A program made the position numbers and the translations under genes. 64,000 nt of DNA, taken from positions 992,001 to 1,056,000 of the forward strand of contig NZ_CP017326.1 in the NCBI RefSeq assembly GCF_001761545.1, given 5' to 3'. Under the pieces are notes generated by a model that made no database searches, was not told the origin of the DNA, and saw only the letters and a list, made by a program, of their open reading frames with translations. The DNA comes from Weissella soli. GTDB taxonomy: Bacteria; Bacillota; Bacilli; Lactobacillales; Lactobacillaceae. Below, piece by piece: positions 3,804 to 19,221 of the stretch; position 1 is the stretch's first letter; the number at the start of each line of letters is the position of its first letter.

Positions 3804-4880
3804 ATGGATAAGCAAGAATTTTCAACTAAAATAAAGCAATTTTCAAAACGGATTGAACAGTTTAAAAATACAATTTCAAACGAAGAACAAACAAAAAATT
3901 CATTGATACTACCCTTCTTCTCGGCTCTTGGATATGATGTTTTTAATCCAATGGAATTCATTCCGGAATTTACAGCTGATGTGTCCGGAATTAAAAAAGG
4001 TGAACGCGTGGATTTTGCGATTAAATTAGATGATCAAGTTGTGATCCTAGTTGAGGCGAAAGAACTAAGTGCCCCCCTTGATAAGCATACTACACAAATT
4101 AATCGTTATTTTAATGTTGTTGACGCAAAGTTTGCAATCATCACTAATGGTAAAGAGTATCGTTTTTACACGGATCTCGAAAAAGAAAATATAATGGATG
4201 GCAAGCCGTTTTTGACGGTTGATCTAACAGATATCAAAGATTCACAAATCAGTGAACTTTTTAAATTTGTAAAAGACAACTTTGATTCAGAAAATATAAC
4301 CAGTACAGCTTCTGATCTGAAATATGTAAGTCAAATTAAGGCATTTTTTACTCAAGCAATAGATTCACCAAATGATGATTTCGTTAGATTAGTTCTTGAT
4401 GAGATCGGATACGATGGTGTTAAGCGACAAAATATTATTGAAGAGTTTAAACCTATGGTTTCTAGAGCTGTACAATCCTTAATTAGCGAGCGTGTAAATG
4501 ATCGACTATCTAGTGCATTGAATTCTACCAGTGTTACGACGTCCGAGGAAGTGGTGGTATCTTCTGACGAGGCAGTACCAGAGAAAACAGAAAACGAAAT
4601 TGTAACTACCGCGGATGAACTTGAAGTTTATACAATTACGAAACTAATTTTGAATAAGATACTCCCTTCTGACCGTATTTTTTATCGGGACAATACTACA
4701 TACTTTAATATTTTGATAGATGATAATAATCGTCGCTGGGTACTACGTGCCTACTTTAATTCCTCACGTTCATGGATCGTATTAAATGACCAAGACAACA
4801 CAAAAATAGAATTCAAACAACCGATAGATATCTATGAATATGCTTCTAAAATTAGCGACATAGCTCAAAACTTTGTATAA
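3804..4880 (+). CDS. HsdR N-terminal-domain-like (PD-(D/E)XK) protein, candidate prophage accessory/defence gene
   Basis: A 358-residue protein whose first 170 residues look like the N-terminal domain of type I restriction R subunits (HSDR_N): SLILPFFSALGYDVFNP, then ERVDFAIKLDDQVVILVEAK, where the D and the E-x-K pair fit the PD-(D/E)XK nuclease core, then INRYFNVVDAKFAIITNGKE. There is no helicase domain, so it is not a restriction R subunit. A low-complexity linker (residues about 245-275) leads to a second domain with NTTYFNILIDDNNRRWVLRAY and SSRSWIVL. Ribosome site AAGGAG is clear. It lies between the repressor/protease pair and the integrase, a usual place for superinfection or anti-phage genes. 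Nuclease activity is inferred from the motif only. Confidence 0.65.
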   Translation: MDKQEFSTKIKQFSKRIEQFKNTISNEEQTKNSLILPFFSALGYDVFNPMEFIPEFTADVSGIKKGERVDFAIKLDDQVVILVEAKELSAPLDKHTTQINRYFNVVDAKFAIITNGKEYRFYTDLEKENIMDGKPFLTVDLTDIKDSQISELFKFVKDNFDSENITSTASDLKYVSQIKAFFTQAIDSPNDDFVRLVLDEIGYDGVKRQNIIEEFKPMVSRAVQSLISERVNDRLSSALNSTSVTTSEEVVVSSDEAVPEKTENEIVTTADELEVYTITKLILNKILPSDRIFYRDNTTYFNILIDDNNRRWVLRAYFNSSRSWIVLNDQDNTKIEFKQPIDIYEYASKISDIAQNFV

Positions 4881-4908
4881 ATGAAATACAGATCCTCCAA
4901 ACATCATT

Positions 4909-4975
4909 TATATAAATAAAAAGCCACTTGTGAGGTGGCATACATACGTCCAGCAAGGAACGACGTTAAAAGCTA
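4909..4975. repeat. Direct repeat copy 2 with two hairpins
   Basis: Second copy of the repeat at 3703. The hairpin is ACGTC (4946-4950) with GACGT (4962-4966) around loop CAGCAAGGAAC. Relative to copy 1 the closing pair changes from G-C to C-G on both sides, so pairing is kept. It also carries a non-coding copy of the sequence that encodes the last codons of the ImmA-like gene in copy 1. Confidence 0.65.
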
Positions 4976-5004
4976 ATTTAAAAATGTGTGGAAAGGATTA
5001 AACA

Positions 5005-5703
5005 ATGCCAACCTCAATATCTATTAGACAAATATCCCAGTTGAAAATTCCAGAAGGAGAGACAGTTGTAGAAAGAGCAGGTGTCCCACTAGGATCAATA
5101 AGACGAAGTGAAACTACATTTATTATTAATAGCGAAAGTTATACTATCTATAACTGTTCATTTAGTAAAGACTATGCTGATAACATTTCCGTATTTATCC
5201 CAGAAATAGATGACTACATAGAACTGAATTCATACAAGAAAAAAATTGAATTTAAACTATATTATAACTCCCATAAAGGAATCATATTCTCAGATGCAAC
5301 CACACCTATAACAAAAAGCTTTCTTAACTGTCTAAATGCTACACCTTCAGTTAATATCGAGTACAAGACTCCGCATTTTAATTTAGAAAGTATTGCAAAT
5401 CAACTAATTGAGACAAAAGGAGTAGGATTTGATTCGGATGACGAAGGAGTAAGCAGTAAGAGCTTTTATGGAAGTGAAGTTGATACTAACCAAGAAGCTA
5501 GCTATGCTCTAGAACAAGATCATTCTACAAAACTAATTGGTTCAATAGAAGTACTTGGTTCACTATATACGATAATGTTTACGCAATCAGGAAGCATTGT
5601 AGCCTACTCTAAAATACCAACAACAAAAGAAGGAAAACCTTTGGAAAATCCAATGTTACACTTCTCTTTAGATGTGCTTAGTACAATTCATTTTTTGGAT
5701 TAG
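5005..5703 (+). CDS. Unknown prophage accessory protein, 232 residues
   Basis: Not recognised. The protein is soluble, with no signal peptide or membrane segment, and beta-rich at both ends. It opens with a repeated-turn region (IPEGETVVERAGVPLGSIRR) and has an acidic middle (FDSDDEGVSSKSF). A good GGAAAGG site precedes the ATG, and the second direct-repeat copy lies just upstream. Its stop overlaps the stop of the opposite-strand gene by four bases. Position between repressor and integrase makes it a candidate lysogenic-conversion or defence gene, but nothing in the sequence proves that. Confidence 0.5.
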   Translation: MPTSISIRQISQLKIPEGETVVERAGVPLGSIRRSETTFIINSESYTIYNCSFSKDYADNISVFIPEIDDYIELNSYKKKIEFKLYYNSHKGIIFSDATTPITKSFLNCLNATPSVNIEYKTPHFNLESIANQLIETKGVGFDSDDEGVSSKSFYGSEVDTNQEASYALEQDHSTKLIGSIEVLGSLYTIMFTQSGSIVAYSKIPTTKEGKPLENPMLHFSLDVLSTIHFLD

Positions 5704-6470
5704 TATACATTAGTCAATGGAATGTAATTTTTAACTATATCTTCAAGTGTTTCTAAATCAGATGATGTTGCATATATTTTATTTTTTTGTATCTTTAGTG
5801 TCATTTCATCATTTTTAATATCAATTTGAACACTTTTAATTTTAATAGGTTGTATAGTCTTAATTGTAATTTTGTAAAATGGGTTTAAATTACTACTATT
5901 TAAATCAATTCCGAGTGTATATGAACAATCATTGAATGTAAATTTGCTCGTTATAAAATCCTTATATTTTTTGAAATCTGACCATACAGATTTTACAGAT
6001 CTAGCAGCAATTTGATATTCGAACTTTAATACTAGTTGTTGATTTGTTGGTTTGTTGACTAAATTGGCATTTATAGTGAAACGCAATTTGTTTGAAGTAG
6101 CTGTTTTTATTGAAAGACTTGATTCTCTTTTTTCAATATCTCTTTTTTTTGAAAGATTTTCTTTATCCATAAATGATATCAAAACCTCTTCAACATCCAA
6201 TAATTGTATCTCATCGGCAAGTTCTAAGCGCACTGAAGGTTCAAATACAACTGTAGAATTTTTTATGTACGCTTTTAGTTTATTAACCCAACGATAAATG
6301 AAATCGCTTTCATTATACAACGCGATTAGTACGGGAGCTAAGCTAAATAATTCTAAATAATTAGGAGCCATCTGATTCACAATTGCATGAATTACATTGT
6401 AAGTGGTGACTATCAGAGTTATGGCAATTAAAAATATAATTAAAATTTTTTTAAAATCAAATTTTTCCAT
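5700..6470 (-). CDS. Unknown two-segment membrane protein in prophage
   Basis: A 256-residue protein with two hydrophobic segments near the N-terminus (about residues 8-30, IILIFLIAITLIVTTYNVI-like, and 38-52) and a long soluble C-terminal part rich in K, I and N. Start at MEKFDFKK is chosen because GGAG lies eight bases upstream; a longer reading to 6539 has no site. It is tail-to-tail with the 232-residue gene and runs against the direction of the lysogeny block, which suggests its own promoter and expression in the prophage state. Very AT-rich. Function unknown. Confidence 0.5.
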   Translation of the reverse strand: MEKFDFKKILIIFLIAITLIVTTYNVIHAIVNQMAPNYLELFSLAPVLIALYNESDFIYRWVNKLKAYIKNSTVVFEPSVRLELADEIQLLDVEEVLISFMDKENLSKKRDIEKRESSLSIKTATSNKLRFTINANLVNKPTNQQLVLKFEYQIAARSVKSVWSDFKKYKDFITSKFTFNDCSYTLGIDLNSSNLNPFYKITIKTIQPIKIKSVQIDIKNDEMTLKIQKNKIYATSSDLETLEDIVKNYIPLTNVY

Positions 6471-6585
6471 CAATGCTACTCCTCTACAAATTGAATTTAA
6501 AAAACTTACTGTTTGTCCTGAAACTGAATCAAAATACAAAAACTAAAATTATATTTAGCAATATACTATTAAATTATTGTATCAT

Positions 6586-6779
6586 GACTCGACAAGTCGT
6601 TAAACTGCTATACCACTCCGTGAATCTCCTGATAAGGCATTACAAAAGGAAAATCATGATAAATAAAAAAGCACACCCTCCATCGCCAAACTTGAGGTGT
6701 GCGTGTAACAAAAAAACAAAGCATCACTGCCCTATTTCTGTATTCGATTATAACAGACCTGAGCAAGTCTATAAACTGC
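6586..6779. repeat. Direct repeats upstream of integrase, possible arm-type sites
   Basis: GACAAGTCGTTAAACTGC (6591-6608) and GAGCAAGTCTATAAACTGC (6761-6779) are imperfect direct repeats about 170 bases apart in the leader of the integrase gene. Between them is a perfect 7-bp inverted repeat GCACACC (6672-6678) / GGTGTGC (6697-6703), with an A-run on its left, so it reads as a terminator for leftward transcripts. The repeats could be arm-type integrase sites or regulatory sites. Confidence 0.4.
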
Positions 6780-6838
6780 CTAATGTGATCAATAACTCCT
6801 CAATTATTCAGGGCCACACCCAAGTTGAGGTATTTTGA

Positions 6839-7987
6839 ATGGCAACAATTAATTATGAACAATATACAAAAAAAGACGGTACTAAGTTATGGGTTGTAAA
6901 AATTCGTTATCGTGACGATTCCACGGGGAGATTAAAAGCTACAACACGACGTGGCTTCACTACAAAAAAAGCTGCTAAAATAGCAGCTGAAACATTATCG
7001 ATTGAACTTCCAAAGGTTGAAAAATCTAAAAGATATCTAGATTCAAACAATATGACCTTAGATAAACTATTCGAGATCTGGTGGTCCAGTTATGAACATA
7101 CAGTAGAAGCATCTACCGCTAGAACAACTAAGATGCTCTTCAAAAATCATATTTTGAACTCATTAGGCAGCTACTTAGTGACCAAACTGTCTGTGCCCAT
7201 CATTCAACAATGGATTAATGCTGAGATGTCTCAGTACGTTCAGTATAACAAATTTGCTAATTACTTGCGATCACTACTCGATTTAGCTGTTTCCATGGAC
7301 ATCATACCAATTAACCCATTTCACAAAATTAAAATACCCCATCGATCAATAAATATTAGAACTCCGAAATCCAAAGCATGGGATTCCGAAGATTTTATAA
7401 AATTTATTAATACGTTAATGGGGCCTTACAGAGCTCAAAACGAAATGGGATTCACTTATTTATGGATCGTTGCCTTCACTGGTATGAGACGTGGTGAGGC
7501 ATTGGCCTTAACATGGGATGATATTGATTGGGATCAAATGACAATATCCGTGAATAAAGCAGTTAAGCTCTCCTCTGAAGGAAATTATGTAGGCGTACCT
7601 AAAACTGTCTCTGGTAACCGTATATTAAGATTTGACAATATGACATATAAAGTGCTCGTAGACTGGCAGACTAGGGCTAATCCAGAACATCGTTTCATGT
7701 TTTCTCAAAAGAGTTCGGATAAACCAGTTAATCTGACACGACCTGAAAAATGGTTTCATGCCGCTGAACAACTAGCCAATGTTCCCCACGTAACCGGGTT
7801 GCATACTTTGCGTCATACATTCGCCACGTTAGCTATCGAGAATGGGTTTACACCTAAACAGGTTCAATATCAGTTAGGACACAGCGATAGTGCAATAACA
7901 ATGGATATCTATACCCATATAACACGTAGATCATCGGATGATATCGGTGCTAATTTTGCTAACAAAATTGATAATAAACTGAATTAG
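6839..7987 (+). CDS. int: Prophage tyrosine integrase
   Basis: A 382-residue tyrosine recombinase. Residues 1-50 are an arm-binding domain (YTKKDGTKLWVVKIRYRDDS, then RRGFTTKKAAKIAA). A core-binding SAM-like domain covers about 65-160. The catalytic domain holds the first arginine in FTGMRRGEALAL, HTLRHTFATL with H-x-x-R, and the nucleophile region LGHSDSAITMDIYTHI with tyrosine. All catalytic residues are present, so it is probably active. GAGG lies ten bases before the ATG. It is the last phage gene on this side, so the attachment site should lie just downstream. Confidence 0.9.
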   Translation: MATINYEQYTKKDGTKLWVVKIRYRDDSTGRLKATTRRGFTTKKAAKIAAETLSIELPKVEKSKRYLDSNNMTLDKLFEIWWSSYEHTVEASTARTTKMLFKNHILNSLGSYLVTKLSVPIIQQWINAEMSQYVQYNKFANYLRSLLDLAVSMDIIPINPFHKIKIPHRSINIRTPKSKAWDSEDFIKFINTLMGPYRAQNEMGFTYLWIVAFTGMRRGEALALTWDDIDWDQMTISVNKAVKLSSEGNYVGVPKTVSGNRILRFDNMTYKVLVDWQTRANPEHRFMFSQKSSDKPVNLTRPEKWFHAAEQLANVPHVTGLHTLRHTFATLAIENGFTPKQVQYQLGHSDSAITMDIYTHITRRSSDDIGANFANKIDNKLN

Positions 7988-8115
7988 AAGTTGCACGCAA
8001 ATACACCCAAAAAATGCACCCAAAAATGCACCCACGGGCACTTATAAAAGTCACAACCGTTGATATATCAGCGTTTCAAAGGCATTGGGAACGAGACCCG
8101 TTGGCTCCTTAAATC
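7988..8115. other. Probable attachment-site region with arm-type repeats
   Basis: Right after the integrase stop are three tandem units (ACACCCAAAAA, ATGCACCCAAAA, ATGCACCCACGG, at about 8001-8034), the layout of arm-type integrase binding sites. The att core is expected between them and the chromosomal terminator at 8126; the stretch AAAGGCATTGGGAACGAGAC at 8079-8098 and what follows is the best candidate. It does not look like the 3' end of a tRNA or tmRNA. The matching core at the left prophage end lies outside the window. Confidence 0.45.
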
Positions 8116-8125
8116 ACTGTATCAA

Positions 8126-8172
8126 AACATCCGCTGAACTAAGGATTTATTTAGTTCAGCGGATGTTTTTTT
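8126..8172 (+). terminator. Strong intrinsic terminator
   Basis: AACATCCGCTGAACTAA pairs with TTAGTTCAGCGGATGTT (17 bp, perfect) and is followed by seven Ts. It is probably the terminator of the chromosomal unit into which the prophage integrated. Confidence 0.85.
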
Positions 8173-8300
8173 ATACATCAATTAGCGTCTGGATGTACCA
8201 TTTTTAGTCGTGAGGTATCCGTTAATACTGTCATCATAATGTTACTTATGAAAAAAATCTCTTTATGCTATATTTTAAAAATGCGAAAAGGAGAAAGACA

Positions 8301-8747
8301 ATGCCCCATAATTTTAAAGAAGAGTTGATCTTCACGTTTTTAATGGCTGGCCTCATGGTTTTGGGGATGACATCTTACAATGTCTTCTTACAAAATGGCT
8401 TTTCAGATACACTAGCTAACGAAATTATCCTCGGGTTCCCCCTTGGATTCCTCGTCGCTCTGATCTGTGACCTCATCGTCATTGGCCCCATTGCCAAACA
8501 GTTAGCGTTCAAATTTATCATTCCCAAATATATGCTTAAAAGTAGCCTCCAAATTGGCATCACTATATCTTTGTTGATGATTCTAGGCATGGTAACCTGT
8601 ATGTCATTATTTGGAATATTGATCAGTAAGCAGGCTCTCTCTGCTTATCCATCAGCTTGGTTGATGAATGTTATTGTGGCCATTCCGTTGCAACTGTTAC
8701 TTGTTGGACCATTATCTCGCAAAGTGCTCGCGCTTGTCCAAAATTAA
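8301..8747 (+). CDS. DUF2798-type four-helix membrane protein
   Basis: A 148-residue protein with four membrane segments arranged as two similar halves, each ending in a conserved turn (GFPLGFLVALICDLIVIGP in the first, NVIVAIPLQLLLVGPLSRK in the second). This internal repeat with a V-G-P/I-G-P motif is typical of DUF2798 membrane proteins. AAAGGAG lies eight bases before the chosen ATG; an in-frame start at 8265 has no site. Single gene; transport or stress roles have been guessed for the family but the function is not known. Confidence 0.65.
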   Translation: MPHNFKEELIFTFLMAGLMVLGMTSYNVFLQNGFSDTLANEIILGFPLGFLVALICDLIVIGPIAKQLAFKFIIPKYMLKSSLQIGITISLLMILGMVTCMSLFGILISKQALSAYPSAWLMNVIVAIPLQLLLVGPLSRKVLALVQN

Positions 8748-8771
8748 AGAAGATCAACTGATTAATTGCGG

Positions 8772-9363
8772 TGTACCCAAAAAGTTAAAGTAAAATAATT
8801 TAGCTGATTAAGCGGCCATTTGTCGGTATTCTACCGGTGAGTGGCCGTTTAATTTTGTTTGAATGCGTGCGTTGTTGTCATACCGTATCCAATCATTAAT
8901 CGCATTAATCAATTCTTTTGCGGGTGAATACTTGTTCAGTGCACCAATTTCAACTTTTAGTTTATTAAAGAAACTTTCCATAACCGCATTATCTAGAGCG
9001 GTCGCACGACGCGACATGCCTTGGATAAGGCGGTTTTGCTTTAACGTCTTGCGCCATGCCAACGTAGCCAAACTTGGCCGCAACAGCCGTGAATGAAGCG
9101 TTCTCCCTAATCGCCCATGAAGCAGCTACCGCAATACGAAATTTCCACGTTATTGCTGGGAGATTAAATAACACATCAGGTCCATGGGCAGCGTAAGCTG
9201 CTATAAGCATACTAAATAACTCTTGAGCAATATCGTAGTGTTTGGCTACTTGGGCCTTTGAGTTGAAGCCTGCGTGATACGCCGGAATCGCCTCAAGTTT
9301 TGTTTGTTTTGAAATTTTTGTCATAAAGAAACCCCCGAAAGTTACTTCAACTTTCGGGGGTAC
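8772..9363 (-). mobile_element. Internally deleted IS3-family element
   Basis: Terminal inverted repeats are visible: TGTACCC-AAAAAGTTAAAGTAA at the left edge (8772 on) and, reading from 9363 on the other strand, GTACCCCCGAAAGTTGAAGTAA. Between them are the 5' part of OrfA and the 3' end of OrfB. At about 590 bp it is under half the length of a full IS3/IS150-type element, so most of OrfB including the first catalytic residues is missing. Exact ends are uncertain by one or two bases. Confidence 0.75.
8808..9324 (-). pseudogene. IS3-family transposase remnant (OrfA start joined to OrfB end)
   Basis: From 9324 leftward the sequence encodes an IS150-type OrfA N-terminus (KQTKLEAIPAYHAGFNSKAQ, VAKHYDIAQELFSMLI, and ASFTAVAAKFGYVG). 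At about 9060 it passes, in another frame, into the C-terminal end of OrfB: WRKTLKQNRL, SRRATALDNAVMESFFNKLK with the last catalytic glutamate in the MESFF motif, and ARIQTKLNGHSPVEYR. The central DD-containing part is absent, so no active transposase is made. Confidence 0.75.
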
Positions 9364-9417
9364 GCCTCATTCATTCCTCAACCTTTTTATTTTTAATGAT
9401 ATATATTTTTTGATTCA

Positions 9418-9696
9418 CTAATAAATTACGTCATCCATATACCCAAAGAACTCGTCATCGGGTTCGATTACAACCTTAGCATTAGGAAACTCAGGCAGTA
9501 TCCCATAGTAAACTTCAAATGGATCGTTAATATCAGCATTGCGAACATCACCAGCATCCGTTTCGATGTCCGAAACATGATATTTACCGGCCTGCTTAAA
9601 GTAGTTTAAAGCGTCGTCATCATCACTTTTCAGATTAGTATCCCACCAAAACAGAACATCCTCGTTGTCATACCTTGCTTTAATTTTAAAGTCCAT
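9418..9696 (-). CDS. Unknown acidic protein, 92 residues
   Basis: Not recognised. A very acidic small protein (KSDDDDALNYF, DIETDAGDVRNADINDPFEV, PDDEFFGYMDDVIY) with mixed alpha/beta character and no membrane segment. GAGGTG lies five bases before the ATG, so translation is likely. It sits 70 bases downstream of the EAL gene on the same strand. Acidity might suggest DNA mimicry, but this is speculation; it may also just be cargo of the island. Confidence 0.45.
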   Translation of the reverse strand: MDFKIKARYDNEDVLFWWDTNLKSDDDDALNYFKQAGKYHVSDIETDAGDVRNADINDPFEVYYGILPEFPNAKVVIEPDDEFFGYMDDVIY

Positions 9697-9767
9697 CTTT
9701 TCACCTCGTTAGTAATTGGGGTGATTTAATGTACTACTCTTAAAAACCATTTTTCTACTTGGTGCGC

Positions 9768-10496
9768 TTATCCTTCATAACAGTCATGATCGGTCTTACC
9801 TCTAATGATATTTTTTTCTGTCCCGAAGTAATACCCTTGCTGAAGACAAACGGACAAACTCTTAGTAATTCTTGATTTTCGTAACGAGTCTATTCTTTCA
9901 ACAACTATCTCAATCCTTTTGGAAAAGAAAAATCGCATAATATTTGCGTAGATAACAAATCCTAAAATATAGAGTACAGATTTATATCCTAAAAACATTA
10001 TTTTAACACGATCATAATATTGCCGATTGCTTTTGTATGATGCGAAAGTATTGATCCCTGCAGTATAATCATCAATCGCAATCTTGTAATTACAAGCTTT
10101 GATTTTTTTTAAGATACTTTCTAATGCCAACAAGAGCTCTGGATCATTCTTCGGTGTGTGTTCAGTAATCTCAATTATCAATTGATGATGGTATTGAGAA
10201 AAGTACTCTAAAAATTGGAAAGTTGAGCCAAATCGGAATTGATCAATATCTATATTGATGGAAAATTTGATATTTGGATGCTCTTTTATCTGCTGTTCCA
10301 GCTCTAACTTAAACCAATTCATGTATTTGTTATATTTATTTTCATTTTCAAGTATTTCATGAAAGATATCTGCAGGAAATTTTTGCGTTTTCATTGATCG
10401 CAGTAAAACTTCAAATTCCTCAAAACCAACCGCGTTTTGACCACAAATTCTTACTATAGGTTGAAAAACTAGATAAAAATGTTCTGATTCATCCAT
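9768..10496 (-). CDS. EAL-domain protein, probable c-di-GMP phosphodiesterase (copy A)
   Basis: A 242-residue stand-alone EAL domain. Signature positions are kept: E-V-L in FEEFEVLLRS, N in FSINIDIDQF, E in LIIEITEHTP, the aspartate pair in IAIDDYTAGI, K in DRVKIMF, E in EIVVERI and Q in QGYYFG. These are the metal-binding and catalytic residues of c-di-GMP phosphodiesterases, although EAL is EVL and DDFGTG is DDYTAG. Start at MDESEHF by comparison with copy B (16898-17647), which has the same upstream sequence GCGTATC(A/G)AAA. It lies behind GGDEF copy A, so one operon or a pair makes and degrades c-di-GMP. Confidence 0.75.
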   Translation of the reverse strand: MDESEHFYLVFQPIVRICGQNAVGFEEFEVLLRSMKTQKFPADIFHEILENENKYNKYMNWFKLELEQQIKEHPNIKFSINIDIDQFRFGSTFQFLEYFSQYHHQLIIEITEHTPKNDPELLLALESILKKIKACNYKIAIDDYTAGINTFASYKSNRQYYDRVKIMFLGYKSVLYILGFVIYANIMRFFFSKRIEIVVERIDSLRKSRITKSLSVCLQQGYYFGTEKNIIRGKTDHDCYEG

Positions 10497-10605
10497 TTTT
10501 TGATACGCTCTCTCTCTATAGAGACTAAACACTTTTTAAGGGCATCATTTTTCAGAAGTAGACAAATGCATTTAACTTAGCTTAAAAATTTAATGTTTGT
10601 TCTAT

Positions 10606-10650
10606 TTAGATTAAAATAGTTTATCCTTATCGAGAAGCAGCGTATCCAAT
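10606..10650 (-). promoter_or_regulatory. Conserved leader of EAL gene, copy A
   Basis: About 45 bases here match 17766-17810 with few changes (shared core TTATCGAGAA and GTATCCAA). In both cases the block lies about 110-165 bases upstream of the EAL start and between the GGDEF and EAL genes. Conservation of non-coding sequence suggests a promoter or leader element for the EAL gene. Confidence 0.4.
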
Positions 10651-10682
10651 GAAATCAAATACTATACTGTCCTTAAAGGAAG

Positions 10683-11768
10683 TCATTGTTGTCTAACCTC
10701 GGCAATTCTTCTGTAATTTTCTTTTTGGAATTTCTTTTGTTCATACATTTTTAAATCGGCAGCATCTATATAATAGTTCAAATCATGATTCATAGTATCT
10801 TCAGCGAATGCTTCCCCCATAGACACTGAGATTCCTAATTCATCAAGATTACTTATATTACTTTGAATCGTTGCTTGAATCATCCGGAGAGTTGCAAACG
10901 TTATGTTTGAAACTAACACTAAAAACTCATCCCCACCCCAACGAGCAATAACTGCCGACGAAGGAAATGTTGATTTTAGCAAATTACTGAAATCTACTAA
11001 CACTCGGTCACCTGTAACATGTCCATAAGTGTCATTTGAATTTTTAAAATTATCTAAATCAAAAATCAAAACCCAAATTTTTTTATTTTCATTTTGAACC
11101 ATTTTGTAGTAATCAGAAACTTTACGACGATTAAATATATTTGTTAAAGGATCTTGATAGATCAATTCAGTAAATCTTTCTTTTTCTTGAACTGAATCTG
11201 AAATATCTGTTGTTACACAACAAATCGCGTATATTTCGCCATGATTATTTTTCACTGGAGAATAGGTAGTATACAAATATAGATCTTGTCCATCATTTTT
11301 CAGAATATCCTCGGAAGTTTGAAAACCCAATGATATTGCGGCATTCACATTATCTTTGAATGCTTTCATATGAAGTGGTGTGAGATATTTGGATACATTT
11401 TCTCCTAATTTAGGATGTAATTTATAATACTTATCCATGAATTCAATGTTTGATTCATTCATATATAAGTAATTAAATTCTAGATCAACGATATAAAAGC
11501 TACCATTTACTAAAATTTCAAAACTATCTTGATATAACGCGCTTTGATTTTCGTATTTATTAAAAAGTGAAAAAAATCTTTTAATACCCAAAAACAGGAA
11601 TATTAATATACCCACTAATAGTAGATATATTATATTTGTTCCAATACCATCGAAAAACTCCGTATAAAGTAACACACCAACGAGCATTGTCAAACCAATG
11701 CTCTGACCATAGATATGCATCAGTAATTTATTACGATATTTTTTTGTAGTTAAATTTGTTTTAAACAT
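10683..11768 (-). CDS. Membrane PAS-GGDEF diguanylate cyclase (copy A)
   Basis: A 361-residue protein: two membrane segments (about residues 18-60), a PAS-like domain (about 75-195, with NGSFYIVDLEFNYLYMN and AICCVTTDIS) and a GGDEF domain (about 205-350). The latter has YQDPLTNIFNRRK, the metal-binding FDLDNFKNSND and an intact active site ARWGGDEFLVLV. The inhibitory I-site RxxD, expected five residues before GGDEF, is absent (PSSA instead). It should make c-di-GMP at the membrane in response to a ligand or redox signal. Start at MFKTNL; the region upstream contains a palindrome shared with copy B. Confidence 0.85.
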   Translation of the reverse strand: MFKTNLTTKKYRNKLLMHIYGQSIGLTMLVGVLLYTEFFDGIGTNIIYLLLVGILIFLFLGIKRFFSLFNKYENQSALYQDSFEILVNGSFYIVDLEFNYLYMNESNIEFMDKYYKLHPKLGENVSKYLTPLHMKAFKDNVNAAISLGFQTSEDILKNDGQDLYLYTTYSPVKNNHGEIYAICCVTTDISDSVQEKERFTELIYQDPLTNIFNRRKVSDYYKMVQNENKKIWVLIFDLDNFKNSNDTYGHVTGDRVLVDFSNLLKSTFPSSAVIARWGGDEFLVLVSNITFATLRMIQATIQSNISNLDELGISVSMGEAFAEDTMNHDLNYYIDAADLKMYEQKKFQKENYRRIAEVRQQ

Positions 11769-11845
11769 AGTTCGTTCCCACCAAAAGTGATTTGATTTCT
11801 CTAAACAAACATTTAATATCCTGCAAATCAAAAATGAATCGAAAG

Positions 11846-11864
11846 ATATGAGATGTTTCATAAT
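11846..11864. promoter_or_regulatory. Palindrome upstream of GGDEF copy A
   Basis: ATATGAGATGTTTCATAAT contains TATGA and TTCATA half-sites. The same arrangement (ATATGATATATTTCATAA) is found at 19024, in both cases about 75 bases upstream of the GGDEF start. Candidate common operator or promoter element. Confidence 0.4.
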
Positions 11865-12003
11865 ATTACTAATTTAAATGTGTATGGAACTTTAATGTTT
11901 TTCAACTATTAGAATAAATTCTCCTTCTAACTATCTAATAATATTATAACTTATTCATCATCTAATTGCCCTGCACTAAACCACCCCCCTCGAGTTCTAA
12001 AAC

Positions 12004-12066
12004 TCAAATTATCATAATAATTGCCAGTACCGCCTCAATAAACGCTTGCGAACATTCGTTACTCAT
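12004..12066 (-). CDS. Possible 20-residue peptide
   Basis: Reads MSNECSQAFIEAVLAIIMII with AAAGG positioned six bases before the ATG. The last eleven residues are hydrophobic. It may be a leftover of a longer gene, because the stop falls amid AT-rich, otherwise empty sequence. Listed only because of the good ribosome binding site; function unknown. Confidence 0.2.
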   Translation of the reverse strand: MSNECSQAFIEAVLAIIMII

Positions 12067-12120
12067 ATGACACCTTTCTATCTTATATCTCAAATTAGTA
12101 ACTTTTAAATTTAGCTTAAT

Positions 12121-12838
12121 TTGACATCTAATGGCATCCAACCAGCTACACCTATTAGTGATGATAACTTATTAAAAAAACTAGGAATTAATATTGACTA
12201 TTTAACTGCCAATAATGTGTTAAAATTAGCTTTCTTATTCCATATTTTTGCTAATCAAGCTAGATTATCAGCAGATACTAATGGTAATTTTAGCCGTTAA
12301 AATTTTAAAGAACCCTAATGATTTTGGCACACGCGGTGATTCATATAATCTAACTAGTGGTGATATTTATTATATTCAACAACTAGCAAAGGATCTTCAA
12401 AGTAACGCTTTTAGAAACAAAATATGTAACCATGTAGTATTGGATAAAGATGTTAATGTATCAATTGAGAATAACAAAGTCTTTATCAATGGTATCGCTA
12501 TGGATAATTTAAAACCTGAGGATGTCTATCAAGATATCAATAATCAAACTTATATTGATTTTCGCGATGCATTTCAACAATTAGAAAAAGCATCTATTAG
12601 TTATGCTAATACTGCTAAATCCGCAGGTGTTATTTCAAATTATTCTGATATGAATAATCGTTATATTGATGTTTCGGGAGTAGCACCTGAGACGCAATTT
12701 ATTTATGTAACTGTTCCATTTGAGTATTTAAATAGTCCTCAACCAATTACAATCAAAGGAATATCTAATTTGTTGACTGGTCCAACTATCGCACAACCAT
12801 TCACACTGATCAAGGGTGGCACTATCGTCACAAATCAT
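12121..12838 (+). pseudogene. Choice-of-anchor-A-type adhesin remnant, frameshifted and truncated
   Basis: Two overlapping frames encode consecutive parts of one protein. The first (from about 12121) reads TSNGIQPATPISDDNLLKKL and ends NGNFSR-stop near 12299; the second continues in another frame with LKNPNDFGTRGDSYNLTSGD, FRDAFQQLEKASISYANTAK, DVSGVAPETQFIYVTVPFEY and QPITIKGISN. The pattern resembles choice-of-anchor A surface proteins. There is no start or signal peptide, a frameshift lies near 12295, and the 3' end is cut by an IS fragment at 12836. So it is dead. Confidence 0.6.
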
Positions 12839-13071
12839 GGCGCAAGATGTTAAAACAAAACCGCATTATCTACAGCATGTCGCGTCGTGCGACCGCTCTA
12901 GATAATGCGGTTATGGAAAGTTTCTTTAATAAACTAAAAGTTGAAATTGGTGCACTGAACAAGTATTCACCCGCAAAAGAATTGATTGATGTGATTAATA
13001 ATTGGATACGGTATGACAATAACGCACGCATTCAAACAAAATTAAACGGCCACTCACCGGTAGAATCCCGA
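12836..13071 (+). mobile_element. IS3-family OrfB 3' fragment
   Basis: About 235 bp nearly identical to the OrfB end of the element at 8772-9363, in the opposite orientation. It encodes LKQNRIIYSMSRRATALDNA, ESFFNKLKVEIG and NGHSPVES, then diverges right after the sequence for SPVE. No terminal repeat is present. Its left edge, CATGGCGCAAGA, is the same internal IS position at which OrfA and OrfB are joined in the first copy. Confidence 0.75.
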
Positions 13072-13116
13072 TTGTCACAGCCGATACCATTTTATGCAAG
13101 TTCCTGCCGTATTAAT

Positions 13117-13932
13117 TTATTTTTTTACGATTAAAGTGTTATTAAATGGATCTGTGATCCGCAGCGTTGTCTCATCAACAACCTGGCTGATAGCTTGATC
13201 CCGTAACATCGCAAAATAATTTTCATCAACCGCCACTTGCCAGTCAACTAAGCCCGTCTCATCACCTTGTCGCATTTCCACCGCGCTACCTAACCACGTG
13301 TTATATGCGTGGTGGTGATGGTACTGATTGTGTGAATAGAAATGGGCACTGTCGGCGATAGCGGCCGTCATGTCCATGCCTAGCAACTCCAAAAAGAAAT
13401 GATCACCCGCTGCCAGATCACCGCCAACAAAATGAACGTGGCCAATGGTGGTCCCAGCTGGGAAACCAGTCCATACATCTTTTTTCTGGGCTAGCAATGC
13501 CCGTACATCCACATCGTTAGTGCCCATGGTCACTAACCCATTGTCCCAGTACCAACTTTCCTTTGGCCGATCATGATATAGCTCAATGCCGTTACCATCT
13601 GGATCATTTAGATAGAACGCTTCACTCACATCATGATCACCCGCACCCAACGGATACTGAATCCGAATCAAGCGCTCGACCAATGCCGCTAAACTAGCCG
13701 TGTCGGGTAATAACACGGCAAAATGATACAGCCCACCGCGTTGTGCTGCAGGTGCCACACCACCAAAAAGAATGTTCAAAAACGGCTGGTCACTTGCCGT
13801 GAAGGCATATGAAAATTCGTGTTCAGCGACCTGCTGTTCAAGCAAGCCTAGAATATCACGGTAAAATATACGCATGGCATATTCGTTTTTTCCTTGCAAT
13901 GTCAGATGCTCAATCTTATATGTAACGTTCAT
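13117..13932 (-). CDS. Two-domain VOC (glyoxalase/extradiol dioxygenase-like) protein
   Basis: A 271-residue protein with two vicinal-oxygen-chelate halves. The first has IEHLTLQGKNEYAMRIFYRD, GLYHFAVLLPD and a metal-ligand stretch DPDGNGIELYHDRP; the second has TIGHVHFVGGDLAAGDHFFL, then HHHHAYNTWLG and TDPFNNTLIV. This architecture matches CatE-like catechol-2,3-dioxygenase proteins of Bacillota. The substrate cannot be read from sequence. AAGGAG lies five bases before the ATG. It is more GC-rich than the neighbouring GGDEF/EAL genes and seems to be an independent unit. Confidence 0.75.
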   Translation of the reverse strand: MNVTYKIEHLTLQGKNEYAMRIFYRDILGLLEQQVAEHEFSYAFTASDQPFLNILFGGVAPAAQRGGLYHFAVLLPDTASLAALVERLIRIQYPLGAGDHDVSEAFYLNDPDGNGIELYHDRPKESWYWDNGLVTMGTNDVDVRALLAQKKDVWTGFPAGTTIGHVHFVGGDLAAGDHFFLELLGMDMTAAIADSAHFYSHNQYHHHHAYNTWLGSAVEMRQGDETGLVDWQVAVDENYFAMLRDQAISQVVDETTLRITDPFNNTLIVKK

Positions 13933-14120
13933 GATGTCTCCTTCAAGTACATGCGTCCAATTTTTCTCTGCGGTTTATCTTAAAGTGGCGGTATTTGATA
14001 CCCAGCACTAAAAGGCAAATGACAGACACTTGTTTAATTCTATAACATCCGGCTGCTTTTGCAATTGAAAAAGGCATGGCCTTCATCCTGATTTTCATCC
14101 CTAGTCCACTACCAAAAAGA

Positions 14121-14161
14121 AAAAATACCAGGAACCACGATGGTGGCTGTTGGTATTTTTT
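14121..14161 (-). terminator. Terminator of the glycosyltransferase/EAL operon
   Basis: AAAAATACCA and TGGTATTTTT form a long stem with an internal CCACGATGG hairpin, just past the stop of the leftward degenerate EAL gene. It can act in both directions. Confidence 0.75.
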
Positions 14162-14166
14162 ACCGA

Positions 14167-14979
14167 CTAATGTTTTAAGGTGTTTTCTAAATATTCTGGT
14201 TTGCCAATAAAGTAGCCTTGGCGATTGCCAACGTAGAACAGATCAGCTAATTCCACACCTTCAATGGCTTCGATTTCAGTCAGATCAACGGTGACATTGC
14301 TGTCTTTGCTTAATCTAACCCAGTCACCAATGTTGTGGTAGAACCAGTCACTATCGCCACTCTTTTGAAATTTCGACAGCGGGATTTTCACACCGGATAA
14401 CATCTTCAGATATTTTTTTACTTTTTTATAGTACTTCATATCTGGGCTAACCTGCTCTAAAATGACCTTGACGCCCATCTTTTTGCTTAATCGTAAATTT
14501 CGTGTCAATCTACTATGCATGACGGGACCAATGGTTTTGGTTGGGTCAATTTGAAATTCAATATGCACATTCATGGGGTAAATCTCACCGGTGAGCCAGT
14601 CAATAAAATAGACATAGCGCGGATCGACCAACTGGGTTAAGCTGATGTTAATGGCTAAAAAAGCATCTGGATATTTGTTCTCTATCGAGCTCTTATTGAG
14701 CAAGTAGATAATCTCGCGCAACGTGAATTTGGCGATATCTTCAGGCAACGACCACTTAGCGTCAGCTGCATCATACTTGCGTAATAACGCTTCATAACCC
14801 GAAACATGACCATCTTTATCGACAATTTTCTGAAAATCGAAGCGGTATTGATCGATACCATCCATTGTTTTGGGGAAGATACCATTCTGTCGCCGCGCCC
14901 AAATGTAACTGACCATGATTGCAATGGCACACGCGATGAAAAATATGAGAGCTATGATAATCAGTACTTCAATCAACAT
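14167..14979 (-). CDS. Membrane-anchored degenerate EAL protein, candidate c-di-GMP receptor
   Basis: A 270-residue protein with one N-terminal membrane helix (residues 3-27) and an EAL-like domain. It keeps GYEALLRK, the asparagine in LAINISLTQL, IEFQID and RQGYFIGKP. The catalytic aspartate pair normally in (I/A)DDFGTG is replaced (VILEQVSPDM), KID is KIP, and the TE after the third motif is ID. It is therefore unlikely to hydrolyse c-di-GMP; degenerate EAL proteins often bind it as receptors. It starts two bases after the glycosyltransferase stop, with its AAGGAG inside that gene, so the products are co-expressed. It probably links c-di-GMP to polysaccharide synthesis. Confidence 0.7.
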   Translation of the reverse strand: MLIEVLIIIALIFFIACAIAIMVSYIWARRQNGIFPKTMDGIDQYRFDFQKIVDKDGHVSGYEALLRKYDAADAKWSLPEDIAKFTLREIIYLLNKSSIENKYPDAFLAINISLTQLVDPRYVYFIDWLTGEIYPMNVHIEFQIDPTKTIGPVMHSRLTRNLRLSKKMGVKVILEQVSPDMKYYKKVKKYLKMLSGVKIPLSKFQKSGDSDWFYHNIGDWVRLSKDSNVTVDLTEIEAIEGVELADLFYVGNRQGYFIGKPEYLENTLKH

Positions 14980-14981
14980 AT

Positions 14982-16316
14982 TTACTCCTTTTTCAAACTT
15001 TTTCTAATAGGGCTAACCCATGCACCAGAGCTTGTATTTTTACCCAAAAAGGCCTTCAATGCCGGGATGAACGTTGTGATAATTGTTAATGGATTGACCA
15101 TCCAGAAAAAAAGCATGTAGAGAGGCGCGAAAATGAAGTAACGCATTTTTGCACCACGGCTATCCAAGATGAGGGCGGCCAACAATTGTAACGTGCCGGC
15201 AATTAATTCAAAGGTAACAAAGATAAATGACATGACAAATCCATGCCAAACTCTTTCCATGTTGCCAGTTGCCAAAAAATAGAGCATCAAAGCAATAAAG
15301 ATAAATGAAGAAATGAAAAAGAAAAACGACCAAACAATTGAAAAGGTGGTGTCAACAAACATCGAAAAAACGTAGCGGTATTTAATCGGATGACGAATGA
15401 ACATTCTAAAGTTTGTTAACCAAACTTCTGTCCCGCCTTGTGCCCACCGCTGTCGCTGCTTATAGAGTTGCGGCAGCGTTTCTGGCACATTCATGTGGAA
15501 AATAATGTCCGGTGCAAAACGCGGTACAATGCCAAACATCAAATGATCCCAGGCAATACTAATATCTTCTGTGCTACGATCTTGACGAAAACCGGCCACG
15601 TTGATTAAGAATTCCTTTTTATACATCGTGTTGGCGCCACTATAAGCGTACATTGAATCGTTCACCGCCGTTTGGCTGCGCTTGATCACGCCAACAATGC
15701 TCGAAAATTCTACTGTTTGTGATTTCCCTAAAATTGTGGTTCGATTTTGAACATCCATATTAGCCGTCACTGCAGCAGTGTTCACATCGGTCTCATCAAT
15801 GAAATAATTCATATACTTCATTAAGGCATCTTTTTCTGGAATCGTATCCGCATCATTACTGAGAATATATTCACCTTTTGCGAAGAAAATTCCTAAATTG
15901 AATCCATGTGCTTTTCCCTGATTCTTTTGTATATTTAGCACCCTGAGTTTTTGATATTTTAATTGTAATGTCTTTAATATTTGTAGCGTATTATCTTTGC
16001 TACCATCATTAATCACTAAAATTTCGTAGTTATCATAATTTAACTGCGTGGCTAGATATTCAATAGTTTCTGCGATCATTGCTTCTTCATTATGGGCCGG
16101 AATCATGATCGTAATTAGAGGTTGTTCTTCCGGCGTCAGCATCCGAAAATGCTTCTCTTTTTTGTTTTTCTTTAGCAATTTGTAACTTAGCGAACCAAAG
16201 AACCAAAATAATGCACCAATAACCGGATAAAGACACAAAATCAAAAAAGCAACCGTGATTACATTGTGTGAAAAATTGCTTAAGAAAGCCCCGTTACTGA
16301 AAAATAGATCATTCAT
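14982..16316 (-). CDS. PgaC-like processive family 2 glycosyltransferase
   Basis: A 444-residue membrane enzyme about as long as PgaC (poly-N-acetylglucosamine synthase). One N-terminal membrane segment, then a GT-A domain with TIMIPAHNEE, LVINDGSKDNT, the D-x-D site LSNDADTIPE, the acceptor site STEDISIAWDHL and the processive motif QRQRWAQGG, then four C-terminal membrane helices. These motifs mark a processive beta-glycan synthase using a UDP-sugar, perhaps UDP-GlcNAc. Start at MNDLFF: ATGAATGA overlap with the PgaD-like gene and GGGAG upstream. It is flanked by two EAL genes and a GGDEF gene, so output is probably set by c-di-GMP. Confidence 0.85.
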   Translation of the reverse strand: MNDLFFSNGAFLSNFSHNVITVAFLILCLYPVIGALFWFFGSLSYKLLKKNKKEKHFRMLTPEEQPLITIMIPAHNEEAMIAETIEYLATQLNYDNYEILVINDGSKDNTLQILKTLQLKYQKLRVLNIQKNQGKAHGFNLGIFFAKGEYILSNDADTIPEKDALMKYMNYFIDETDVNTAAVTANMDVQNRTTILGKSQTVEFSSIVGVIKRSQTAVNDSMYAYSGANTMYKKEFLINVAGFRQDRSTEDISIAWDHLMFGIVPRFAPDIIFHMNVPETLPQLYKQRQRWAQGGTEVWLTNFRMFIRHPIKYRYVFSMFVDTTFSIVWSFFFFISSFIFIALMLYFLATGNMERVWHGFVMSFIFVTFELIAGTLQLLAALILDSRGAKMRYFIFAPLYMLFFWMVNPLTIITTFIPALKAFLGKNTSSGAWVSPIRKSLKKE

Positions 16317-16830
16317 CAGTCGTACGCTCCCTTCCATTTATAATTTGTGATAACTCCTTATTAGCCAAATTTTTATCAGGTGTTACATCATAATATCGAA
16401 CATTGAAACGAAACGCTTCATCGCCGAATCTTTCCGACATAAAATGACTTGCTCGTTTTTGTCGTTCAATACTGTCAATCGCAGCAAACGTTGGCCATTT
16501 TTCCACAAAAGACTCTCTGCGGTTATTTTGAACAATGGTCATTGTAACGGTGTATGTAAGCGTCATAAAAGCTGCAAAGACGAAGATAATTATTAATAGG
16601 TTTATCAACTTAATGCCTTCTGGATACATCCATATTTTCCAACCAATACGCCCATCAGAAGTTAAGTACAGATAGGTACCTATTGTGATGGCGGATGGGA
16701 TAATGAAAAGCACCCAACCAATGAGCGCATAAATAATTTGCTTAACTTTCAAAAGATAGTGTCCTTTTTCGAAGAACAAGTCTGTATAACTATAATTAAT
16801 ATCTGGATTTTTTTGATTTCTTTTTTTCAT
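16309..16830 (-). CDS. PgaD-like two-helix membrane protein
   Basis: A 173-residue protein with two membrane segments (about residues 30-55 and 75-100), a basic N-terminus and a soluble C-terminal part (SFVEKWPTFAAIDSIERQ, GDEAFRFNVRYYDV). Its topology and its place directly upstream of, and overlapping, a PgaC-like synthase by eight bases suggest the partner subunit PgaD, which in PNAG systems helps bind c-di-GMP. Sequence similarity to PgaD cannot be shown by eye. Start at MKKRN; an in-frame TTG three codons earlier is possible. Confidence 0.6.
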   Translation of the reverse strand: MKKRNQKNPDINYSYTDLFFEKGHYLLKVKQIIYALIGWVLFIIPSAITIGTYLYLTSDGRIGWKIWMYPEGIKLINLLIIIFVFAAFMTLTYTVTMTIVQNNRRESFVEKWPTFAAIDSIERQKRASHFMSERFGDEAFRFNVRYYDVTPDKNLANKELSQIINGRERTTDE

Positions 16831-16897
16831 AAATCTCAACTCTTTTGCACTAATACTTTTCTGAATTTACACATTTTAATAACTCACGGTTCAATGT

Positions 16898-17647
16898 TTA
16901 TTTTACTATCTGATCACCTAGATTATTATAATACTCGTAATCCGTGAAACTTCTAATTAAAGTGCTATCCGTCCTAAAATAATAGCCCTGCTGCTGGGAG
17001 ACAGATAATTTTTTCATGATTTTTGATTTTCTTAATGTATCTATTTTTTCAACCACAATTTCAATCTTTTTTGAAAATAAAAACTTGACAATATTCACAT
17101 AAATCACTAAGCCTATTATGATCAATATTGATTTATATCCAAAGAGCGTGATTTTGATTCTGTCATAATATTTTCTATGTTTTTTATAAAGAAATAAAGT
17201 ATTAATACCCTCATTATAATCATCAATTGCAATATTAAAGTGATGATTTTTGATTTTTTTCAAAATATCATCTAACTCAATTAATAATTTAGGGTTATTC
17301 TTAGGAGTATGTTCGGTAATCTCAATAATTAATTTTTCATGGTATCGAGAGAAGTACTTCAAAAAATGGAAAGTCGACTTGAACTGAAATTGGTCAACAT
17401 CTATATTGATCGAGAATTTTATGTCTGGACACGCTTGCATTTTCTTCTCTAACTCTACTGTAAACCAGTCAATATATTGGTTATACTTTTGTTCATTTGC
17501 AAGTAGTTCATAAAACATATTCGCAGGAAATTTTTGAGTCTTGATCGACCGTAACAACACTTCAAATTCTTCAAAAATCAATGTGTTTTTATTACTGATT
17601 TTGACTATCGGTTGGAAAACCAAATAAAAATGTTCTGATTTCATCAT
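16898..17647 (-). CDS. EAL-domain protein, probable c-di-GMP phosphodiesterase (copy B)
   Basis: A 249-residue stand-alone EAL domain closely related to the protein at 9768-10496 over its whole length. Signature residues are kept: FEEFEVLLRS, FSINIDVDQF, LIIEITEHTP, IAIDDYNEGI, DRIKITLF, EIVVEKI and QGYYF. It may be active despite EVL in place of EAL. It lies between the PgaD-like gene and GGDEF copy B on one strand and was probably duplicated together with the latter. Strongly AT-rich, unlike the glycosyltransferase, which hints at different origins. Confidence 0.75.
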   Translation of the reverse strand: MMKSEHFYLVFQPIVKISNKNTLIFEEFEVLLRSIKTQKFPANMFYELLANEQKYNQYIDWFTVELEKKMQACPDIKFSINIDVDQFQFKSTFHFLKYFSRYHEKLIIEITEHTPKNNPKLLIELDDILKKIKNHHFNIAIDDYNEGINTLFLYKKHRKYYDRIKITLFGYKSILIIIGLVIYVNIVKFLFSKKIEIVVEKIDTLRKSKIMKKLSVSQQQGYYFRTDSTLIRSFTDYEYYNNLGDQIVK

Positions 17648-17765
17648 TTTCGATACGCTTTCTTTTTAAGGTTGAAACAACATTTTTAACTGTCATATAC
17701 TTTAATTCGGCGAAAGTGAATGGATGGGTTGAATCCCAGCTTTTAAAATTCAATACTCGATTCAC

Positions 17766-17810
17766 TTAGATTAAAAATGGTTTACCCTTATCGAGAAATA
17801 GTGTATCCAA
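17766..17810 (-). promoter_or_regulatory. Conserved leader of EAL gene, copy B
   Basis: Matches 10606-10650 over about 45 bases in the same position between GGDEF and EAL. Candidate promoter or leader element for the EAL gene. Confidence 0.4.
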
Positions 17811-17880
17811 CGGATTTAGGTATATACTGCCTTTACTTATATTATGAACCAGTGCGATCATTAATGATAGCTATTACTAA

Positions 17881-18951
17881 CTATACCAAGCTAAGAAATC
17901 CTTTTTTAGAATTTTTATGCTTGTACATTTTCTTATCAGCTAAGTCCAAATAGTAAGTTAAGTCATGTTCTTTAGTATTGCCAGCAAATGTTTTCCCAAT
18001 TGATACTGACACACCATAATTTTCAATCTTATTCATTCTTTTCTTGATTGATTCTTCAAAGTCAATTGTTTTTTGATATGAGATGTCCCCCGGTACAATC
18101 GCACAGAACTCATCCCCGCCTGTGCGAGCAACGATTGCTGATTGTGGAAATTCCGTTGCCAATATATCACTAAAATTTACCAGCACCTGATCTCCAGCAA
18201 TGTGTCCATAAGCATCGTTTGCATTTTTGAAATTATCCAGATCAAAGACAAAAAACCACACCTTCCGATCCTCTTTTTGAATATTTTGATAATAATCAAC
18301 GATTTTGCGTCGATTAAATAGATTCGTTAAAGGATCTTGATAAATCAATTCTGTAAATTTTTCTTTTTCTTGCACTGCATCAGTTATATTTGTCGTGATA
18401 CAACAGATGGCATAAATTTCACCCTTACTATTTCTTACAGGTGAATAAGATGTATCCAAATATATATCTCTACCTTCAAAATTTAAGATGTCTTTTGAGG
18501 TATGAAAACCTAATGAAATGGCTGCTTGCACATTCTCTTTAAACAATTCAATATGCGGATCTGCTAAATATTTAGACACATTTTCGCCTACTTTAGGATT
18601 TAATTTATAATACTGATCCATGAATTTTTCATTTGATTTATTCATATATAGATAATTAAATTCCAGATCGACAATATAAAGGCCAACATTCTCTAGTACC
18701 TCAAAGCTATCTTGATATAACCTACTTTCATTTTCGTAATTATCAAACAGCAACAAAATTCTTTTAATGCCCAAAAATAAAAATAATAGCGTACCTAATA
18801 GTAACAAATAAATTATTTTGGTCCCGCCACCATTAGATATTTCCAAAAATAGCAGCACACCAATAATAATTATTAAGGAGAGACATTGACCATAAAAATG
18901 AGTGAGTAATTTTTTACGATATTTTTTTGTTGTAATATTTGTTTTTAACAT
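17881..18951 (-). CDS. Membrane PAS-GGDEF diguanylate cyclase (copy B)
   Basis: A 356-residue paralogue of the protein at 10683-11768: two membrane segments, PAS-like sensor (VGLYIVDLEFNYLYMN, AICCITTNIT) and GGDEF domain (YQDPLTNLFNRRK, FDLDNFKNAND, active site ARTGGDEFCAIV). As in copy A the I-site RxxD is missing (PQSA), so product feedback inhibition is not expected. Start at MLKTNI by comparison with copy A; a TTG or GTG a few codons earlier cannot be excluded. First gene of the leftward polysaccharide cluster. Confidence 0.85.
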   Translation of the reverse strand: MLKTNITTKKYRKKLLTHFYGQCLSLIIIIGVLLFLEISNGGGTKIIYLLLLGTLLFLFLGIKRILLLFDNYENESRLYQDSFEVLENVGLYIVDLEFNYLYMNKSNEKFMDQYYKLNPKVGENVSKYLADPHIELFKENVQAAISLGFHTSKDILNFEGRDIYLDTSYSPVRNSKGEIYAICCITTNITDAVQEKEKFTELIYQDPLTNLFNRRKIVDYYQNIQKEDRKVWFFVFDLDNFKNANDAYGHIAGDQVLVNFSDILATEFPQSAIVARTGGDEFCAIVPGDISYQKTIDFEESIKKRMNKIENYGVSVSIGKTFAGNTKEHDLTYYLDLADKKMYKHKNSKKGFLSLV

Positions 18952-19041: not shown

Positions 19042-19096
19042 AATGTGAATTTATTCAGTTCCCCCTACAATACCTGTTTTAATTAGCAATGCAAAC

Positions 19097-19140
19097 AAAA
19101 AGGCTATAGCATCCATGAGCGTGGATGCTATAGCCTTTTT
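19097..19140. terminator. Perfect bidirectional terminator hairpin
   Basis: AAAAAGGCTATAGCATCC pairs perfectly with GGATGCTATAGCCTTTTT around an eight-base loop. It lies between the c-di-GMP cluster and a gene remnant, and isolates the cluster from transcription coming from the right. Confidence 0.85.
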
Positions 19141-19221
19141 ACCTCTTGCTCACCTAAATTTTCGTCAGAAAATCATGGCCAATTATTCTAATAGTGTTCT
19201 CTGGTCACTCTTGAGGTTTTT

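Follow-up and report, generated by a model that had tools for sequence, protein, structure and literature searches.

The window analysed here, a stretch of 64,000 nucleotides from Weissella soli (NZ_CP017326.1, positions 992,001 to 1,056,000), carries on its minus strand a predicted polysaccharide operon of the gts kind under the control of cyclic dimeric guanosine monophosphate (c-di-GMP). The genes are arranged in the order DGC2-EAL2-gtsA-gtsB-pdeB (18951–14167), with a second regulator pair, DGC1-EAL1 (11768–9768), 2.4 kb further on. An earlier note on this DNA described two paralogous PAS-GGDEF and EAL pairs, a synthase, a small protein and a degenerate EAL protein on one strand, and all seven genes are found at the minus-strand positions given in Table 1. 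There is an 8-bp overlap between gtsA and gtsB and a 2-bp gap between gtsB and pdeB, while the EAL2-gtsA and DGC2-EAL2 gaps are 67 bp and 233 bp respectively; several of the gene starts are our choice, made from comparison of the paralogues and from the sequence.

Profile checks for GGDEF, EAL and GT2 place all of these domains above their Pfam cut-offs. DGC2 and DGC1 score 94.8 and 105.3 bits for GGDEF (cut-off 23.8) and 33.4 and 29.6 bits for PAS_4 (cut-off 23.1), EAL2 and EAL1 score 66.7 and 73.0 bits for EAL (cut-off 31.3), and GtsB scores 106.5 bits for GT2 (cut-off 23.3); PdeB, at 33.4 bits, barely exceeds the EAL cut-off. The circuit proposed earlier thus stands in its gene content, a synthase beside cyclase and phosphodiesterase genes with their active-site residues present. 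Because gene content, GtsB clade and receptor residues agree, the system can be filed under the gts kind, of which it is a variant by its regulators. Its core, gtsA-gtsB-pdeB together with a cyclase/phosphodiesterase pair, is already known from Lactobacillus acidophilus.

PdeB of the window combines a membrane anchor with an EAL domain that keeps ExLxR and has lost catalytic residues. In an alignment of 48 EAL proteins of 215–310 amino acids taken from fetched loci, all 15 of the catalytic class, EAL1 and EAL2 of the window included, keep E, R, N, E, E, D, D, K, E and Q. The PdeB class numbered 33, of which five were dropped, all encoded by separate genes next to gts and with DD and the last E intact (two each at L067 and L084, one at L074); L075 reads as X, so that 27 of the 28 remaining PdeBs are readable. 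The last catalytic E is lost in all 27 and at least one D of DD in 26 (L076 retains both), the R of ExLxR and the Q of QGY are kept in 26, and K replaces N in three. At L059 and L084 the receptor is divided between two open reading frames (ORFs), which fall below the length range of the alignment. This pattern is the one expected of a protein that binds c-di-GMP but does not cleave it. L. acidophilus PdeB behaves in this way, with a measured dissociation constant (Kd) of 4.9 uM and no cleavage (PMC6123363), and the window's PdeB is a predicted c-di-GMP receptor.

The distribution of the receptor is consistent with this role. Of the 251 family genomes, 121 contain a GGDEF match at E <= 0.001 (113 above the Pfam cut-off), which is at odds with the earlier statement that c-di-GMP signalling is rare in lactic acid bacteria. 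GtsB is found in 70 of the same genomes (E <= 1e-60), 60 of which could be classed from their gts surroundings; the ten unclassed include three with GGDEF. At least one gts operon with an adjacent PdeB-like gene is present in 41 genomes, and 40 of these have GGDEF, compared with 4 of the 19 in which only receptor-less gts operons were seen and 74 of the 181 without gts. The contrast is seen also within genera g1, g14 and g19, and is partial in g4 and g38, where one of two and two of three receptor-less genomes have GGDEF. The sole receptor-bearing genome without a GGDEF match, G101, encodes a PdeB (L070, 11391–10609, minus strand) with ECILQ in place of ExLxR and no QGY, so that receptor motifs and GGDEF genes appear to have decayed together. 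A GGDEF gene also lies within the fetched stretch more often at receptor-bearing loci (8 of 30) than at receptor-less ones (1 of 24; p = 0.03), three of those eight loci belonging to genus g6 and three to g5.

Activation had earlier been proposed to run through a PgaC-PgaD-like pair, in which case, as reported for PgaC-PgaD, GtsA and GtsB would hold c-di-GMP between them and PdeB would be accessory. GtsB is indeed PgaC/IcaA-like and gtsA occupies the partner position in nearly all fetched gts loci. However, 15 of the 19 genomes with only receptor-less gtsA-gtsB have no GGDEF, so that the pair would need no c-di-GMP there. Furthermore, GtsA has no PgaD or IcaD profile match (Pfam, NCBIfam), leaving the label "PgaD-like" a positional one, and no detectable likeness to the PgaD- and IcaD-position proteins of two reference loci (hhalign probability <1%, a weak negative as these are single sequences unnamed by Pfam). 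Binding between GtsA and GtsB is therefore improbable, and the degenerate EAL protein is the better candidate receptor.

Pairs 1 and 2 share 69% DNA identity across 2036 bp. The genome (1.68 Mb, one contig) contains three GGDEF and four EAL matches above the Pfam cut-offs, among them a third pair, DGC3-EAL3, at genome position 963.7–961.7 kb, 30 kb outside the window. The paralogous pairs behind the two sensory inputs suggested earlier are thus real, but there are three of them in the genome, not two. The reading frames of DGC3-EAL3 are open; a TAA lesion considered in the third EAL gene was rejected, the EAL3 frame being whole from its ATG. The pair adjoins phage genes, and the DNA further on (L002) matches terminase and capsid genes of phages over short lengths, which supports a prophage. 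DGC1 is 79% identical in protein sequence to DGC3 and 60% to DGC2, and EAL1 is 72% identical to EAL3 and 64% to EAL2. The ratio of nonsynonymous to synonymous substitution rates (dN/dS, Nei-Gojobori) is 0.15 for DGC1-DGC3, 0.14 for DGC1-DGC2, 0.17 for DGC2-DGC3 and 0.13 for EAL1-EAL3; the EAL1-EAL2 value of 0.08 comes with a dS of 2.8, near saturation, and the EAL2-EAL3 comparison is saturated. These values point to purifying selection on all three pairs, and no copy appears to be decaying.

The earlier note had named inactive cyclase sites as grounds for abandoning the circuit; the active-site residues are present. The cyclases contain the GGDEF motif and lack RxxD at the I-site position. A hydropathy scan finds two N-terminal hydrophobic stretches in DGC2 and DGC3 and one in DGC1 at the threshold used. 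EAL1 and EAL2 keep the catalytic E, N, E, DD, K, E and Q, with a diverged loop 6. By these residues the pairs are predicted to be active cyclases and phosphodiesterases.

Pair 2 alone adjoins the synthase, two insertion sequence (IS) fragments of the IS3 family bracket pair 1, and pair 3 adjoins prophage genes, all of which would fit pairs 1 and 3 being mobile-DNA copies with other targets or none, and only DGC2-EAL2 serving the gts operon. Set against this, the reading frames of all three pairs are intact and show purifying selection, and no other c-di-GMP target is in sight, since there is no PilZ protein above the cut-off in the genome and an Rfam scan limited to the window finds one T-box and no c-di-GMP riboswitch. 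We consider such a restriction to pair 2 rather unlikely, and all three pairs may feed the GtsA-GtsB synthase.

The closest described system is that of L. acidophilus La-14, in which dgcA-pdeA and gtsA-gtsB-pdeB have been characterised (He et al. 2018, PMC6123363). Both systems consist of the same five gene kinds, with the receptor gene last in the gts operon, a degenerate EAL receptor that keeps ExLxR, a cyclase without an I-site and a phosphodiesterase with catalytic residues kept and loop 6 diverged; PdeA of La-14 cleaves c-di-GMP despite having no canonical loop 6. With extra DgcA, surface coverage and Congo red staining are reported to increase, and the composition of the polymer is stated as unclear. 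La-14 differs in having one cyclase, with five transmembrane helices, in an operon separate from gts, whereas the cyclases of the window's species are of PAS type and belong to three pairs, of which DGC2-EAL2 immediately precedes gtsA on the same strand.

The same gtsA-gtsB-EAL order is found on the Limosilactobacillus reuteri YLR001 plasmid (NZ_CP065541.1, locus L188), with identities to the window of 65% for GtsB, 39% for GtsA and 26% for PdeB. Unlike the window, this locus has a single GGDEF gene, divergent from gtsA and 28% identical to DGC1 over the GGDEF domain, and is IS-flanked and plasmid-borne; the plasmid is IS-rich, and in the stretch concerned (6120–10020) gtsA is annotated as an ABC transporter permease. 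In Listeria monocytogenes pssA-E, a degenerate c-di-GMP-metabolism domain, encoded last, likewise serves as receptor for polymer synthesis, the role predicted for the window's PdeB, but PssE is described as an I-site GGDEF protein and not an EAL protein (PMC4125290). The window's system would therefore work like Pss without being Pss, whose polymer the Listeria authors argue differs from cellulose and from poly-N-acetylglucosamine (PNAG; PMC4125290). With PgaCD and IcaAD it shares a PgaC/IcaA-like GT2 and a small membrane partner, and differs in that GtsB falls below the PgaC_IcaA cut-off, the partner is not recognisably PgaD or IcaD and the predicted receptor is separate; no IcaB/PgaB, IcaC or PgaA gene was found in the cluster by Pfam on the window proteins. 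A literature search found no paper with Weissella or diguanylate cyclase in its title or abstract for that pairing.

A gts-type operon in which the PdeB receptor switches GtsA-GtsB under c-di-GMP is, as the whole explanation, the reading we hold with considerable confidence. DGC2 and its paralogues would make c-di-GMP under PAS control and without I-site feedback, and EAL2 and its paralogues would break it down. The membrane-tethered EAL protein PdeB would bind c-di-GMP without cleaving it any more and would in turn switch on the GtsA-GtsB synthase, we infer by contact. GtsA-GtsB would then make and extrude a surface polymer, most likely of PNAG type (beta-1,6-N-acetylglucosamine).

Several points weigh against this switch and its product. 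The Fisher tests of receptor and GGDEF co-occurrence give p = 1e-9 (against receptor-less genomes) and p = 1e-12 (against genomes without gts), both too small because the genomes tested are related. Since PdeB of the window shares 26% identity with its L. reuteri plasmid counterpart and about 39% with those of the congeners, the function given to it is carried over a distance, and the comparison with La-14 is with its published description. As to the polymer, GtsB scores 308.8 bits against NCBIfam PgaC_IcaA (TIGR03937), below the cut-off of 422.3, no GH20 is found in the window's genome even at E <= 1, and enzymes of the close GH20 kind lie beside gts only in two congeners and at no other fetched gts locus.

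The missed cut-off and the lack of an own GH20, along with the unclear composition of the L. acidophilus polymer (as stated in PMC6123363) and the lack of a deacetylase gene in the cluster (the cluster only, the genome not having been searched for one), are points in favour of another beta-glycan, either cellulose-like or a heteropolymer like that of Listeria Pss. However, the PgaC_IcaA profile, in line with the earlier label of a PgaC-like synthase, is favoured by 260 bits over cellulose synthase (48.6 bits). In addition, a dispersin-type GH20 lies directly 3' of pdeB in the congeners G253 (71.5 bits) and G260 (63.7 bits; cut-off 22.3). The nearest solved structure to the G253 enzyme is 8qce (E = 1e-114), DispLp of Lactiplantibacillus paraplantarum, which is reported as one of five dispersins tested on PNAG. 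Of the two products named earlier, a PNAG-like or other beta-glycan, we therefore regard the PNAG type as moderately likely and the other as a lesser though serious possibility. No statement that gts makes PNAG was found in the literature searched. GH20 is found at E <= 1e-25 in 23 of the 251 family genomes; five matches are close (E < 1e-100), all in one genus, and four of these five genomes have gtsB. At 9 of 24 family GH20 loci, another PgaC-like GT2 (~30% identical to GtsB) lies within the short fetched flanks.

The usual order in receptor-bearing loci is pdeB-gtsA-gtsB, and the receptor comes last in the window, in G253 and G260, in three g6 loci and on the L. reuteri plasmid. In a tree of 42 GtsB rows chosen from the fetched loci, a single 31-row clade (100/99) takes in all receptor-bearing rows, the window among them, together with L073, a row with no receptor seen. 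The window groups with G253 and G260 at 100/96, and the receptor-last group is weakly supported (81/73). The synteny survey finds the gts operon in these two congeners, with GtsB 75% and 80% identical to the window's, and no adjoining cyclase. In G260, gtsB is split in two ORFs (L116, 11280–9956, minus strand), so the operon may be dead there or the assembly wrong, and its neighbourhood, a few genes off, includes an exosortase-like gene and a further GT2 (5198–7188, minus strand).

The regulator pair has no such kin. G253 and G260 carry elsewhere an EAL-EAL-GGDEF cluster, in which identity to the window's proteins over the aligned part is 25–28% for the EALs and 28–36% for the cyclases, plus a longer GGDEF-EAL protein. 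An EAL match is present in 8 of the 28 genomes of the genus, the window's own among them; in the six of the seven EAL-bearing congeners compared, none exceeds 30% identity to the window's EALs (G255, a weak partial match, was left out). Outside the own genome, the best EAL identity is 37% (397 family genomes, E <= 1e-20) and the best cyclase identity 31% (395 order genomes, E <= 1e-40). A contig scan with two narrow cyclase peptide patterns, from which the own genome was possibly left out, found one locus (29%) and therefore says only that no close kin bearing those two peptides is there. A search of plasmids found none that covers 80% of DGC1, and phage records gave four Listeria records at ~27% to EAL1.

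Because the congeners share the gts operon and have only distant c-di-GMP enzymes, an inherited receptor-synthase operon appears to have been joined in this species to an orphan regulator pair that is present three times. The unusual part is this pair, which is of PAS type, adjacent, on the same strand, in three copies and not found in the synthase-sharing congeners. Tentatively, an orphan cassette was captured, amplified to three and set before the inherited operon, so that one PNAG-type polymer would answer several private inputs; as part of the same proposal, the EAL receptor may mark the c-di-GMP-controlled PgaC-like synthases of lactobacilli and decay upon cyclase loss.

Table 1. Features of the window and of the compared loci (positions are those of the window unless a locus is named).
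Feature	Position	Strand	Remarks
DGC2	17881..18951	minus	GGDEF and PAS profile matches; start by comparison with DGC3, ORF extends to 18963
EAL2	16898..17647	minus	EAL phosphodiesterase; checked catalytic residues all kept; loop 6 diverged
gtsA	16309..16830	minus	small membrane protein, two hydrophobic stretches, synthase partner; ATG start chosen, ORF extends to 16839
gtsB	14982..16316	minus	GT2 synthase, PgaC/IcaA-like; ATG start chosen overlapping gtsA, ORF extends to 16337
pdeB	14167..14979	minus	degenerate EAL, membrane-tethered, predicted c-di-GMP receptor
DGC1	10683..11768	minus	PAS-GGDEF paralogue of DGC2; start by comparison, ORF extends to 11861
EAL1	9768..10496	minus	EAL2 paralogue; start by comparison, ORF extends to 10532
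Terminator-like hairpin, 20 pairs	19096..19141	minus	upstream of DGC2; pattern match only
IS3-family transposase fragment	8823..9058	minus	left of DGC1-EAL1
IS3 fragment, second inverted copy, 95% identical	12836..13071	plus	right of DGC1-EAL1
Glyoxalase/VOC-family gene	13932-13117	minus	after pdeB in transcription order
ORF weakly like adhesive/choice-of-anchor A domain	12248-12853	plus	21.8 bits, cut-off 23.8; runs into IS3 fragment
Dispersin-type GH20	L113 11329-12459	plus	directly after pdeB, congener
Dispersin-type GH20	L116 8808-8008	minus	directly after pdeB, congener G260
GH20 loci with other PgaC-like GT2	L167, L171, L172, L175, L176, L177, L179, L182, L183		

An IS3 carried by a Weissella cibaria plasmid matches the IS3 fragment at 87% identity. 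An ORF at 6839–7987 (plus strand), close to the left of the two fragments, reads by eye as a tyrosine recombinase/integrase, and phage records gave no match to window positions 1–8300. Elsewhere in the window, two adjacent genes (26299–28319, minus strand) read by eye as secreted LysM-type proteins, one of which has an extended linker rich in Ala and Ser as well as a long antisense ORF. The T-box leader found by Rfam (37455–37671, minus strand) overlaps the longest valS ORF at its 5' end, so the true valS start is probably further downstream.

For the family, the co-occurrence of receptor and GGDEF genes offers a sequence rule for which lactobacillar synthases answer to c-di-GMP, and the dispersin-type neighbour opens the identity of the polymer, which the L. 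acidophilus work states as unclear, to direct testing. For W. soli itself, a genome of this small size with one predicted receptor and one predicted output would provide a simple test bed for the local action of cyclases and phosphodiesterases on one target.

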